A stretch of 9,435 nt of DNA from Pseudomonadota bacterium (GTDB lineage: Bacteria > CALINM01). Where the stretch lies: positions 1 through 9,435 of the forward strand of contig JAOAGA010000064.1 of assembly GCA_026415985.1 (NCBI GenBank), in the 5' to 3' direction. This document shows positions 3,296 through 9,435 of the stretch, one piece after another. Both the position numbers and the translations under genes were made by a program. Under the pieces are notes generated by a model, which worked only from the letters and a program-made list of their open reading frames with translations, was not told where the DNA came from and searched no databases. Numbering within the stretch: position 1 is the stretch's first letter; each line of letters opens with the position of its first letter.

Positions 3296-3514
3296 ATGAA
3301 GAAAGCGATAATTTATTCAATTTTTATTTTGATAACAATAACTTTTCCTGACTTCGCAAAAGGAGATGAAAACCATTCGAAGCATTACAACTGGGAGTTT
3401 TTTGATCAGGTTAAAGATAAAAAGGCCACAAGAAAGGCAAAACTCAGGCATTACCACGGAGACAACGTAAAACTTACCTCAAACTATAACTGCTGTAGAA
3501 TCAGAAAGAAATGA
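3296..3514 (+). CDS. Hypothetical small putative secreted protein (72 aa)
   Basis: I do not recognise this protein. Its first 23 residues look like a Sec signal peptide: MKK, a hydrophobic core IIYSIFILITIT, then FPDFAKG with A21 and G23 at the -3/-1 positions of a signal peptidase site. The predicted mature part is about 49 residues, strongly basic and rich in Lys, His, Asn and Tyr, ending in NCCRIRKK with an adjacent Cys pair. It has no twin-arginine motif, so it is not an obvious Tat substrate despite the tat genes downstream. The ribosome site is weak (TAAAG at 3285-3289). A poor sigma-70-like pair (TTGATT at 3254, TTATTT at 3277, 17-nt spacer) lies just upstream. The gene stands alone, flanked by an inverted repeat and a terminator-like hairpin. 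It could be a real small exported peptide or a chance or degenerate frame; the signal-like start tips me towards real. Confidence 0.45.
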   Translation: MKKAIIYSIFILITITFPDFAKGDENHSKHYNWEFFDQVKDKKATRKAKLRHYHGDNVKLTSNYNCCRIRKK

Positions 3515-4757: not shown

Positions 4758-7265
4758 TTGAAAATAAGTAATAAATCATACCCCTATATAGCATCTGCAT
4801 CAACGGTTTTAGTAATCTTTCTTGTCGTTTTATCAATGAGTATTCTTGAGAAAAAGCGATATTTAAACGAGCTTCGTGCGGAAACAATCAACCATTTAAG
4901 TGCCTTTCGTGTCCGCCTTGAAAGTGCCCTTAACTCAAGATTATATGTAACACAAAGTATGGCAGCCTATGTGGCTACCCGTCCGAATATAACACAGCAA
5001 GAGTTTGAGCAGATTGCCAAAGAGTTAATTAAACAGGATGCGGTTGTAAACAGCATTTCATTGTCAAAAAACGCTGTTATAACCCATATACACCCCTTTA
5101 GAGGACATGAATCTGCCATCGGACTTAATCTTATGGTTCACCCTCAGAGAAGACAGATGGTGGAAAAAACGATAGAAAGCAAAAAGGGGTTTATTGCAGG
5201 ACCTGTAGAGTTAGTGGAGGGAGGGGTTGCCTTTATAAGTTATACACCCATTTTCCTGTCGGTGCCTTATAATAACAAAAAAATCGGCCAGTTCTGGGGA
5301 TTAACAGATATAACTATCCTTGTAGAAAATTTATTAAAAGAAGCAGGAATTTATTATGAATCTCCTATCTTATCCATCGCAATCAGGGGAAAAGACGGGC
5401 TGGGAGAAAAAGGTGATATCTTTTGGGGAGACCCAAAGATTTACGAATCTGATCCTGTCTCTCTAAATATAACCATTCCCAACGGTTCCTGGCAGATATC
5501 TGCTATACCCAAAAAAGGCTGGGATACAAGATCTCCCTTTATGATAATACTTTGGACCGGTGGAATAATCTTAATGATCGCAAGCGGACTCCTTGCTTTT
5601 GTCCTTGTCAGAACTCCTATCAAGTTAAGGGAGATGGTTGCAGAGGCTACGGAATCACTGAATAAAAGTGAGAAAAAATACAGGGAGCTTGTAGAGAACG
5701 CAAACAGTATTATCTTAAAATTAGATACCGAAGGAAATATCACATTTATAAATGAGTTTGCCCAGAACTTTTTTGGTTACAAGGAACACGAGATAGTTGG
5801 CAGAAATATACTAAACACTCTTGTCCCCGACAGGGACAGTGATAATACCGATTTATCTCTGATGATTAAGGAGATTTGCCAGTATCCATGGAAGTTTACC
5901 ACTAATGAAAATGAGAATATCAAAAGAACCGGCGAGAGGGTATGGATTTCCTGGACTAATAAGGGAATCTATGAAGAAGGGAAGCTTACCGGTATATTGT
6001 GTATAGGCAATGATATTACAATGCTTAAAAAAACCCAGCAGGAGCTCCAGACCCACCGTAAAAACTTAGAGGAAACCGTTAAAAAACGGACTGAAGAGTT
6101 AGCCATAGCAAATGAAAAATTAAGGCTGGCATCTCAGCACAAATCGGAGTTTCTGGCAAATATGAGCCATGAGATCAGAACGCCAATGAACTCTATATTA
6201 GGAATGACCGAACTGTTAGAGGAAACAGAGCTTACAAAGGAGCAGAAAGAATATTTAGAGATATTGAAAAACAGCGGAGAAGGTCTTTTAAATATCATAA
6301 ATGACATTCTTGACCTTTCAAAGATTGAGTCCGGTGAGCTTTCCATGGAGTATGTAAATTTTGATTTAAGGGAGTTAGTAAACAAACTCATCGGCACAAT
6401 GTCTTTTAAAGCAAAAAATAAGGGTCTGACCCTTTCGGTCAGCATATCATCAGACGTTCCTGACAGACTTACAGGAGATCCCCATCGTCTGCGTCAGGTC
6501 TTAACCAATCTTATCAATAACGCAATTAAGTTTACTGAAAAAGGGCAGGTCCTTTTAACTATAAGTATTGAAAAAAAAATTACTGAACACAATCAGACCA
6601 TCGCAACCCTTCTTTTCTCTGTAAAAGATTCAGGAATCGGGATTCCTAAAGAAAATTCAGAAAAAATTTTTGAAAGATTTACACAGGCTGATTCTTCCAT
6701 CACAAGGAATTACGGGGGAACCGGTTTAGGATTAGCAATATCAAAAAGCCTTGTCGAGATGATGGGTGGGAAAATATGGGTAGAAAGTGAGCCAAACAAG
6801 GGAAGTATCTTTCATTTCACCGTTAAGATGATTGTTCAGGAAGAGAACCAAAAAAATGGAAATGCTGAAGTAAGTCATAGTATCAGACCACTATCAATGA
6901 AGATACTTTTGGTTGACGATTCTTTGGAAAACTGTTTGTTAATCAAAACATTTCTTAAAAATACAGACTGTAAAATAGATACCGCAGAAAACGGCATCTC
7001 TGCATTGGAAAAGTTTAAAAAAGATAGCTATGATATTGTCCTGATGGATATAGAGATGCCGGAGATGGATGGTTATTCAGCAGTCAGATTAATGAGAGAA
7101 TATGAGAAAGAAAGGGGGCTGAAGCCTTTGCCGATAATTGCTCTTTCCGCTTACGCAATGAAGGAAGAGATAGAAAAAAGTATTTCCTCTGGTTTCACCT
7201 CTCATCTGACAAAGCCCATAAAAAAATCAAAAATATTAGAAGTTTTATATAACTACGCCAATTAG
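4758..7265 (+). CDS. Hybrid sensor histidine kinase: CHASE-PAS-HisKA-HATPase-REC
   Basis: This is a membrane sensor kinase of 835 aa. It has a first helix at about 11-30 and a periplasmic CHASE-type sensor at about 40-255, with the typical stretch [13 protein letters not shown]...[12 protein letters not shown]. The second helix is at about 260-284, followed by a signalling helix and a PAS domain at about 304-422. After a coiled coil comes the dimerisation domain with phospho-acceptor H471 in [14 protein letters not shown]. The ATPase domain has N588 in [17 protein letters not shown] (624-630), IFERFTQAD and GGTGLGLAI (653-661). The C-terminal receiver has acidic D720/D721, phospho-acceptor D764 ([13 protein letters not shown]), S797 and K819. 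All catalytic residues look intact. CHASE domains sense small extracellular molecules; the ligand here is unknown. The TTG start is chosen because GGAG sits 8 nt upstream and no earlier start fits. It is the first gene of a three-gene relay operon, 13 nt before the HPt gene. Confidence 0.93.
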
Positions 7266-7278
7266 AGAGATACCTTTG

Positions 7279-7596
7279 ATGGAAGAAAAAAAGATTATTG
7301 TTTTTATTAATGAAGAGCTTGAAGAGATTGTCCCCCTTTTTATTGAGAAAAGATATAAAGATATAGAGGAAATATCAAAATGTTTAAACTCAGAAGATTA
7401 TGATACCATAAGAAGGTTAGGACATAATATAAAAGGAACTGCTGGTGGATATGGTTTTCTGAAAATTATGGAAATAGGCAGAGATATTGAAAGATACGCT
7501 TCTGAAAAAAGTTCCGGTAAAATTATTGAAGAAATTAATAAATTAAAATACTTTCTTGACAATTTGGAAATCAGATATGAAAGAGAACATCTATGA
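7279..7596 (+). CDS. Free-standing HPt phosphotransfer protein
   Basis: The protein (105 aa) matches an HPt four-helix bundle: LGHNIKGTAGGYGF carries the phospho-accepting His (residue 49 from this start) with the usual following Lys and Gly, flanked by amphipathic helices on both sides. HPt proteins shuttle phosphate from the receiver of a hybrid kinase to the receiver of a separate response regulator; they are cytoplasmic and have no kinase activity. I chose ATG at 7279 over an in-frame TTG one codon earlier, because ATG is the stronger start and AGAGAGA (7264-7270) lies 8 nt upstream. Its TGA overlaps the start of the activator gene as ATGA. Sitting between a hybrid kinase and a response regulator, it is the expected missing link of the relay. 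Confidence 0.88.
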   Translation: MEEKKIIVFINEELEEIVPLFIEKRYKDIEEISKCLNSEDYDTIRRLGHNIKGTAGGYGFLKIMEIGRDIERYASEKSSGKIIEEINKLKYFLDNLEIRYEREHL

Positions 7597-8954
7597 AGCG
7601 TTATAAAATACTTGTGGTAGATGATGATATATCCTTTAGGCTTCTCATAGGAAAACAACTTAAAAAATATTACCTTGACATTTCTTATAGTGAAAATGGC
7701 AAAAACGCATTGGAAATTTTACAAAAAGAACCCTTTGATCTTGTCATTTCCGATCAGATGATGCCCGAAATGGATGGTATTGAGTTACTGAAAGAGGCAA
7801 AAAAAATTTGTCCTGATACCCCCTTTATAATTCTTACAGCCTTCGGAGATATAAAAAATGCAGTTACAGCAATAAAACTCGGCGCCTATGATTATTTAGA
7901 AAAGCCCTACCGGGTGGAAGATTTGGTGGCCACAATAAGCAGAGCGATAGAACATAAACAGCTAACAATGGAAAATAAAAATCTGAAAGCCCAGTTACAA
8001 AATATATATAATTTTCAAAACTTTGTAACAAAATCACCTGCAATGATAAAGATCCTTAGGCTGGCTGAAAAGGTTGCGAAAAACCCGGAGACCACCATAT
8101 TGATTTTAGGAGAAAGCGGAACAGGTAAAGAAATGCTTGCCCGAGCAATTCATTATGCCGGTGATGGTATGGCAAATAATTTTGTAGCAGTAAACTGTGC
8201 CGCTATCCCCCCTGCCCTTTTGGAAAGTGAACTTTTCGGACATGTAAAAGGCGCGTTTACCGGTGCCTATAAAGACAGAGAAGGAAAAATTGCCTTAGCT
8301 AAAGGTGGTACACTTTTGCTTGATGAGATTGGAGATATGCCGTTGGAAACACAGGCAAAGCTTTTAAGAGTTTTGCAGGAAAAGGTTTATGAAAAATTAG
8401 GTTCCGATAAACAGATGGGAACAGATTGCAGAATAATTGCTTCAACCCACAGGGATTTAGCCAAACTTGTGGAAAAAGGATTGTTCAGAGATGACCTTTA
8501 TCACAGGTTAAATGTATTCCCCTTACACATACTCCCCTTAAGAGAGAGAAAAGAAGATATACCGGTTTTAACAAACCATTTTCTGGAACAGTTAAGGATA
8601 GCACTCGGAAAACAGCATATTGAAATTTCCAAAGAGGCAATGGATATGCTTTTAAGCTATGATTGGCCGGGCAATGTCAGAGAGCTTAGAAACTGCCTGG
8701 AAAGGGCAATTATAGTCGCAGACAACGGATTGATAAATGAAGACAATATTATACTGGCACAAAAAGATAACTCCCGTAAAGTTAGCTCCGATACTTTTAA
8801 TCTACCGTTAGATTTAAGCTCTCCCGATTTCTCTCTCCAGCATGTAATAGATGAGGTATTTTCACTTATACTTCAGAAATGTGGTGGCAACAAAACTTTG
8901 GCATCTAAACTGCTTAAGATTGACCGAAAGGCCTTTTATCGCAGGAAAAAGTGA
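7593..8954 (+). CDS. NtrC-family sigma-54-dependent response regulator (REC-AAA+-Fis HTH)
   Basis: This 453-aa transcription activator has the classical three domains. The receiver (about 4-120) has acidic D10-D12, phospho-acceptor D54 (DLVISDQMMPEMDG), T82 and K104. The AAA+ domain (about 145-375) has Walker A GESGTGKE (173-180), the sigma-54-contacting loop GAFTGA (220-225), Walker B LLLDEIGD (241-248), FRDDLYHRLNVFPL with the arginine-finger region, and WPGNVRELRN (358-367). A Fis-type helix-turn-helix at about 412-453 ends GGNKTLASKLLKIDRKAFYRRKK. It should bind enhancer-like DNA and, when phosphorylated, use ATP to open promoters held by sigma-54 polymerase. The start ATG overlaps the HPt stop, with a purine-rich site GAAAGAGA just upstream. 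The linker between AAA+ and HTH is slightly longer than minimal; length and motifs are otherwise ordinary. The target gene is not given by homology; see the promoter just downstream. Confidence 0.95.
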   Translation: MKRYKILVVDDDISFRLLIGKQLKKYYLDISYSENGKNALEILQKEPFDLVISDQMMPEMDGIELLKEAKKICPDTPFIILTAFGDIKNAVTAIKLGAYDYLEKPYRVEDLVATISRAIEHKQLTMENKNLKAQLQNIYNFQNFVTKSPAMIKILRLAEKVAKNPETTILILGESGTGKEMLARAIHYAGDGMANNFVAVNCAAIPPALLESELFGHVKGAFTGAYKDREGKIALAKGGTLLLDEIGDMPLETQAKLLRVLQEKVYEKLGSDKQMGTDCRIIASTHRDLAKLVEKGLFRDDLYHRLNVFPLHILPLRERKEDIPVLTNHFLEQLRIALGKQHIEISKEAMDMLLSYDWPGNVRELRNCLERAIIVADNGLINEDNIILAQKDNSRKVSSDTFNLPLDLSSPDFSLQHVIDEVFSLILQKCGGNKTLASKLLKIDRKAFYRRKK

Positions 8955-9000
8955 CTGTTCCAAAAAGTCACATTTTGTCCAATAAAAGAACATATTGTTC
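8951..9000 (+). promoter_or_regulatory. Candidate enhancer (activator binding sites)
   Basis: TGTTC at 8956, TGTCC at 8976 and TGTTC at 8996 recur at exactly 20 bp, about two helical turns. Two inverted repeats overlap them: GTGACT/AGTCAC (8951-8956 and 8966-8971) and GAACA-TAT-TGTTC (8988-9000). The block begins inside the activator stop codon and ends 46 bp before the -24 element of a sigma-54 promoter match, a normal place for NtrC-type binding sites. No protein-specific consensus is known to me, so the role is inferred from position and repetition. Confidence 0.45.
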
Positions 9001-9044
9001 AGCTTAATCATATTTTTCCTGACATTATATCAGATAGTTATCGA

Positions 9045-9060
9045 CGGCATTTATTTTGCA
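9045..9060 (+). promoter_or_regulatory. Sigma-54 (-24/-12) promoter candidate
   Basis: CGGCAT-TTATT-TTGCA matches the sigma-54 consensus TGGCAC-N5-TTGCA at nine of the eleven defined bases (both differences are C/T changes). It has the essential GG (9046-9047) and GC (9058-9059) at exactly the required 10-nt separation. Transcription would begin near 9071 and run rightwards. It lies about 90 bp after the stop of a gene for a sigma-54 activator, which raises the prior considerably. Confidence 0.65.
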
Positions 9061-9092
9061 TCAAACTTTTTTATTGAAGTAATTCAGTCTTA

Positions 9093-9106: not shown

Positions 9107-9131
9107 AGGGACATTTTAAATCCTTTTTGCC

Positions 9132-9161
9132 GAGGGGTAATAAATGTATATAAGCAGTTAG
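9132..9161 (+). CDS. Possible 5-codon leader peptide with its ribosome site
   Basis: GAGGGG (9132-9137) stands 6 nt before ATG at 9144, an ideal spacing and the best ribosome site in this intergenic region. The frame reads M-Y-I-S-S and then meets four stop codons in a row in the same frame (TAG TGA TAA TGA, 9159-9170). The ATG of the following open frame (9167) is embedded in these stops. This could be a leader peptide coupled to the next gene, or the ribosome site may only look functional. The listed interval includes the ribosome site; the reading frame itself is 9144-9161. Confidence 0.3.
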
Positions 9162-9166
9162 TGATA

Positions 9167-9435
9167 ATGAAAAAGAATAACCACGTGATGAAGTTATCCT
9201 CTCTCTTTCTTAAGATAAATTATATCTGTTACCTGTCTCAATTTATACCTAAAGAAACAAAATCAATAAAATTTTGTTTTAAAATCTACAGTCAATTATG
9301 CTTCGTTCCTATCAGTGTAAATATTTTTCCAAAAGTTTCCCAAAAAAATATTTTTCTGTTTGTTTTTTCTTTTTTGACAATTACACTATGCCTTGTAAAT
9401 AATTCTTATACCGCAATATACGGATATGCTACAAA
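9167..9435 (+). CDS. Unrecognised open frame running off the right edge (5' part)
   Basis: From ATG at 9167 the frame stays open for 89 codons to the end of the window (the same frame is open from 9083). I do not recognise the product. The first 60 residues are rich in Lys, Phe, Ile, Ser and Cys without a visible domain. A strongly hydrophobic stretch, NIFLFVFSFLTITLCLV, then leads into NNSYTAIYGYAT, which resembles a signal peptide and possible cleavage site. If that is a true signal peptide, the real start may be further right at a non-ATG codon, because 60 residues before it is too long. No Shine-Dalgarno precedes 9167 directly. The gene would be the natural target of the sigma-54 promoter about 110 bp upstream. 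An open frame this long is moderately unlikely by chance in such AT-rich DNA, but it may be non-coding. Confidence 0.35.
   Translation, partial: MKKNNHVMKLSSLFLKINYICYLSQFIPKETKSIKFCFKIYSQLCFVPISVNIFPKVSQKNIFLFVFSFLTITLCLVNNSYTAIYGYAT
9374..9403 (+). promoter_or_regulatory. Possible sigma-70 promoter at the right edge
   Basis: A perfect -35 hexamer TTGACA (9374-9379) is followed after 18 nt by AATAAT (9398-9403), five of six matches to the -10 consensus. It lies inside the open frame that leaves the window. It may serve a gene outside the window if that frame is not coding, or be a chance match in T-rich DNA. Confidence 0.3.

Follow-up and report, generated by a model that had tools for sequence, protein, structure and literature searches.

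The enhancer-binding protein regulons of Desulfovibrio vulgaris, in which most sigma-54 promoters lie at most 100 nt from the nearest activator site, this being the commonest distance (PMC4641369), offer the closest described parallel to the locus analyzed in our study. The two are alike in their GG-N10-GC promoter element, in a two-component activator with a GAFTGA motif, and in operators, here putative ones, within about 100 nt; unlike those regulons, our locus has a C before the GG, its TGTYC motif with a 20-bp period matches no named regulator, and it is known from sequence alone. On a broader scale, Francke et al. (2011, PMC3162934) have assigned sigma-54 a controlling role over the outside of the bacterial cell, with emphasis on polysaccharide, LPS, flagella, lipoproteins, and wall precursors. 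The likely target of our locus would also be exported or surface-exposed, but as a DUF7933 (DUF11-like) protein. As for named regulators, AtoC, ZraR, and PrsR (PEP-CTERM) have the REC-AAA-Fis layout in common with the regulator studied here, to which their general similarity is high, although the scores fall far below the cut-offs.

The window, that is, the whole stretch of DNA analyzed, is the entire 9435-bp contig C122 of the genome assembly G000 (1.57 Mb, 161 contigs, 84% complete), and the comparison set within the phylum consisted of G000 and two further genomes, G001 and G002. We consider it likely that a relay formed by a CHASE hybrid kinase, an Hpt protein, and an NtrC-type regulator activates a promoter at 9045-9060 and so transcribes an exported-protein gene from 9167 or 9188.

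The relay operon and its activator

The operon is encoded on the + strand and begins with a hybrid histidine kinase of 835 aa (4758-7265, putative start) organized as CHASE-PAS-HisKA-HATPase-REC, whose Pfam domains CHASE, PAS, HisKA, HATPase_c, and Response_reg all score over their cut-offs. It is followed by an Hpt phosphotransfer protein of 106 aa (7276-7596) with the motif HNIKGTAGG and a Pfam Hpt score of 29.9 bits (cut-off 24.6), and by an NtrC-type response regulator or enhancer-binding protein of 453 aa (7593-8954), in which Response_reg, Sigma54_activat, and AAA_lid_14 are over their cut-offs. By predicted domain content, the three proteins constitute a complete His-Asp-His-Asp phosphorelay. 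The earlier note had recognized an NtrC-family gene with an intact GAFTGA loop upstream of the promoter, which is borne out, as the gene encodes a complete REC-AAA-Fis activator whose GAFTGA motif lies at 8250-8267; the note's description of an orphan signaling operon, by contrast, has to be corrected, given that hybrid kinase, Hpt protein, and response regulator are all present.

The C-terminal HTH_8 domain of the regulator scores 21.9 bits against a cut-off of 22, a shortfall of 0.1 bit that is due to its short C-terminus. Its profile scores are 421 bits for AtoC, 377 for ZraR, and 388 for PrsR (TIGR02915), where the curated cut-offs are 714, 760, and 502.6, and the NtrC model is also under its cut-off; consequently, no named ortholog can be given for the regulator. 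Neither G001 nor G002 contains an ortholog of the CHASE kinase or of the relay, and a scan of genome contigs for relay orthologs returned only relatives of at most 43% identity. Elsewhere in the window, an orphan frame of 72 aa (3296-3514) is flanked by an EmrAB-like efflux operon and tatA-tatC; its start resembles a signal peptide, and Pfam gave no match for it.

Sigma-54 in the genome and the site at 9045-9060

The sigma factor on which this reading depends is present in G000 as an intact rpoN (467 aa, RpoN box ARRTVTKYRE) placed in an operon behind an LptB-like ABC gene, and ten G000 proteins have a strong Sigma54_activat domain, the one on C116 being cut by the contig end. In genome-wide pattern searches, where counts were compared with those of the reversed pattern, TGGCAC-N5-TTGCW with at most two mismatches was found 572 times versus 200, and the class NGGCAH-N5-TTGCW 35 times versus 3, an approximately tenfold enrichment. 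Members of this class lie a short distance 5' of the starts of glnA, a ferredoxin-like gene, a radical-SAM operon, and a pilin-like gene. When 30 members were sorted with gene boundaries from a simple open-reading-frame caller, 11 of the 17 that begin with T were intergenic or at gene starts; among those without T, 11 of 13 were intragenic, approximately the background level. The local sigma-54 consensus is TGGCAT-N5-TTGCW, and G000 appears to make use of sigma-54, since T-first sites precede glnA and other gene starts.

The -24/-12 element at 9045-9060 on the + strand, CGGCATTTATTTTGCA (CGGCAT-TTATT-TTGCA), was assigned by sequence, pattern class, and matrix, with a predicted transcription start at about 9071. 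Its GG (9046-9047) and GC (9058-9059) are ten bases apart (GG-N10-GC), in agreement with the earlier claim that both elements stand at the required separation. It is located 3' of the activator stop codon (8954), in an intergenic region of 212 bp, on the same strand as the downstream frame and 5' of the start of that frame at 9167 or 9188. The element has two mismatches to TGGCAC-N5-TTGCW and one to the consensus of G000 itself. It is important to note that the window contains 8 matches with at most three mismatches to TGGCACG-N4-TTGCW, where 6.8 are expected, so that by mismatch count alone the site is not above chance. In the matrix scan it scores best in the window, with 0.05-0.08 such matches to be expected in 9.4 kb when both strands are counted, and first-order Markov versions of the intergenic region reached its score on the + strand in 3 of 5000 and 1 of 4000 cases; a chance sigma-54 site this good in this particular 212-bp region would arise about once per thousand.

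Two matrices were used, both small: a generic one, written from general knowledge of the consensus, and one built from G000 sites that had been picked to begin with T. By the latter, 9045-9060 obtains 14.0 bits versus 16-20 for T-first sites. As regards the genome-wide rank that the earlier note had proposed as a check, the site is the best in the window by matrix but stands below the very top by the G000-trained one. The base before its GG is C in place of the T of the extended consensus, and this is the weak point of the site because class members without T are mostly intragenic; its location, on the other hand, speaks in its favor, since activator genes in G000 are frequently followed by a same-strand sigma-54 site. 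Taken on pattern and matrix evidence, 9045-9060 is nevertheless a genuine sigma-54 promoter-like element, and the original observation is confirmed. The G000-trained matrix ranks higher (15.6 bits) a second sigma-54-like match, TGGCATCTAAACTGCT at 8899-8914, within the 3' end of the activator coding sequence. We rejected it as a true promoter: in addition to its intragenic position, the first T of its TTGC is replaced by C, and the putative operators would fall downstream of its start.

An operator-like array between activator and promoter

In the interval from the activator stop codon to the promoter, the pentamers TGTTC, TGTCC, and TGTTC (three times TGTYC) begin at 8956, 8976, and 8996, with an exact period of 20 bp. 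The operator-like copies, all on the + strand, are TGTTCCAAAAAGTCACA (copy 1, 8956-8972), TGTCCAATAAAAGAACA (copy 2, 8976-8992), which is a near-palindrome of the form TGTCC-N7-GAACA, and TGTTCAGCTTAATCATA (copy 3, 8996-9012), the weakest of them; counted from the predicted start at 9071, their centers would lie at about -107, -87, and -67. The site of NtrC itself is a 17-bp dyad, the same length as the near-palindrome of copy 2. Three-copy repeats of equal quality, at any period from 17 to 31, occurred in 1 of 1000 dinucleotide shuffles for 5-mers and in 6 of 1000 for 17-mers, figures computed after the array had been noticed. In the assembly, TGTYC-N15-TGTYC is found 6 times versus 14 for the reversed pattern, two of the six being the window array, and no second TGTYC array was found in the assembly, at its 84% completeness; having no match elsewhere, the array fits a local target. 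We regard its copies as candidate upstream activating sites, lying at the usual enhancer distance from the promoter.

An inverted repeat, GTGACT-N9-AGTCAC, extends over the activator stop codon (8944-8980), where it would form an RNA hairpin of -11.4 kcal/mol (z -3.4). It overlaps copy 1 and may be an operator, a terminator, or both. A scan for terminators with a T run 3' of the activator found none, and Rfam gave no credible RNA element in the leader. The leader also contains, at 9130-9161, AGGGG followed by a five-codon frame (ATG TAT ATA AGC AGT TAG), a possible leader peptide.

The downstream gene

Among the six frames, only the right-hand one, whose start is at 9188 or 9167 and which is open at the contig end (9188-9433, + strand), has a codon score that is not negative (1.8, versus -26 to -54 for the rest). 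Its product has a long signal-peptide-like leader that ends in a hydrophobic stretch and is followed by NSYTAIYGYAT. Because the contig ends at 9435, the gene to the right could be identified only through a relative. In a homology search of G000, G001, and G002, there was one match elsewhere at E 8e-4, with the rest above 0.04: residues 58-89, the last 32 of the product, align without gaps to a protein of G002 contig C84, with 15 of 32 identical (47%, pairwise E 2e-8). On the G002 side, the alignment covers the last part of the signal region and the beginning of the mature protein (NSYPAMYGYATNATG...). The G002 protein is also cut by its contig end and has a DUF7933 domain (E 4e-33), along with DUF4394-like and carboxypeptidase-regulatory-like stretches that are both under cut-off. 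This make-up probably marks it as a secreted surface protein with repeats, and the target in the window is, by homology, probably an exported, large, surface-exposed protein. The target is thereby named through 32 residues of a homologue, while the gene itself stays cut at 9435. Neither the window end nor the G002 protein had a match in another G000 contig that could continue the gene, and no further homologues of the surface protein were found in 290 genomes beyond G002.

Upstream of the G002 gene (L203:1228-1243) is TGGTATAAAAATTGCA, likewise a GG-N10-GC element, the score of which was reached in 72 of 4000 randomized sequences; it is weaker than the site in the window. There is no activator beside this gene, so that sigma-54 control seems to be common to the two genes, while the neighboring relay is not. 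A comparison for a common operator gave only TTTTGTCCA, with a likeness reached in 747 of 2000 shuffles, which is not significant.

Recurrence of the gene order

The order activator, sigma-54 site, and mostly exported protein recurs in G000 and G001. On contigs C83 and C93 of G000, an activator is followed by a same-strand sigma-54 site of 18.8 and 16.3 bits, respectively; the former precedes a small exported protein, rich in Ala, Pro, Lys, and Glu, whose gene is facing one of the Fur family (L041, C83:9255-12752), and a small protein and a transporter lie 3' of the latter. On C152 of the same genome, the site behind the activator is weak (11.8 bits) and precedes a signal-peptide protein. The nearest relative of the window regulator (44%) is encoded on C65 of G001, where two tandem TGTTACCAAAAAGTAACA-type palindromes lie 3' of the regulator, followed by AGGCACAGCTTTTGCT, a site likewise without T before the GG, and by a cytochrome c7/FeS/molybdopterin-enzyme operon.

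The likeness between the G001 palindrome and copy 1 of the window array (TGTT-CCAAAAAGTCACA) was reached in 30 of 2000 shuffles (1.5%), and, together with the value of 4% for C83, it is no more than suggestive of related operators between the systems. The same shuffle test gave 7 of 2000 for L140, with an alignment made up mostly of A/T runs, and no significant common operator for the upstream regions of C93, C152, and glnA. In the G001 region (L052, C65:30000-42000), a PhnD-like binding protein, a kinase, and the NtrC-type regulator adjoin the cytochrome c7/4Fe-4S/molybdopterin oxidoreductase operon, and this arrangement, with the tandem palindromes and the sigma-54-like site in between, is likely to be an electron-acceptor sensing system.

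Discussion

The claim of the earlier note that the relay controls what lies to the right of 9071 is supported at the sequence level by the presence of rpoN and of the activator, by the array between activator and promoter, and by the G002 homologue with its sigma-54-like site. In the mechanism that we propose, phosphate would pass from the CHASE kinase to its own receiver, then to the Hpt protein, and finally to the NtrC-type regulator, following a His-Asp-His-Asp path. The phosphorylated regulator would bind the three operators at 8956-9012, which are spaced by 20 bp and lie on approximately the same helical face, from where DNA looping would allow it to reach the sigma-54 polymerase waiting at 9045-9060. 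Its GAFTGA loop would then open the polymerase, and the exported protein would be switched on. Counting against this reading are the C before the GG, the absence of an activator beside the G002 gene and the weaker sigma-54-like site of that gene, and a target homology that extends over 32 residues, from the signal peptide into the beginning of the mature protein.

The sigma-54-like site of the G002 gene with no activator beside it, along with the presence of ten activators in G000, also favors an explanation in which the promoter is real but responds to another of the enhancer-binding proteins, the neighboring relay controlling other genes; we consider this unlikely, given that the array lies between the regulator stop codon and the promoter and is matched nowhere else in the assembly, and that activators beside their targets recur in G000 and G001. 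That the GG and GC elements arose by chance, with a sigma-70-type promoter driving the downstream gene and the repeats acting as a terminator for the relay operon or amounting to noise, would accord with the C before the GG, with the background-like behavior of class members without T, and with the hairpin across the regulator stop codon, but it is quite improbable in view of how rarely randomized intergenic regions reach the score of the site, of the lack of a terminator-like site with a T run, and of a sigma-70 scan that found 2 sites versus 3.2 in shuffles, the sole one on the + strand being within the downstream frame.

Control of the exported-protein gene by the adjacent relay is thus the reading that we prefer. 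A more specific version of it, which we put forward tentatively and with some doubt, is that the CHASE-sensor relay is dedicated to a single sigma-54 target, a giant repeat-bearing surface protein, and would couple an external small molecule to the production of one surface protein. If control by the relay is true, a signaling operon of a barely sampled lineage would be given a concrete output in the form of an exported surface protein, with a defined operator and promoter, and the locus would add to the view of sigma-54 as governing the cell exterior. In addition, the recurrent order of activator, sigma-54 site, and mostly exported protein would be usable for assigning targets to activators in this lineage.
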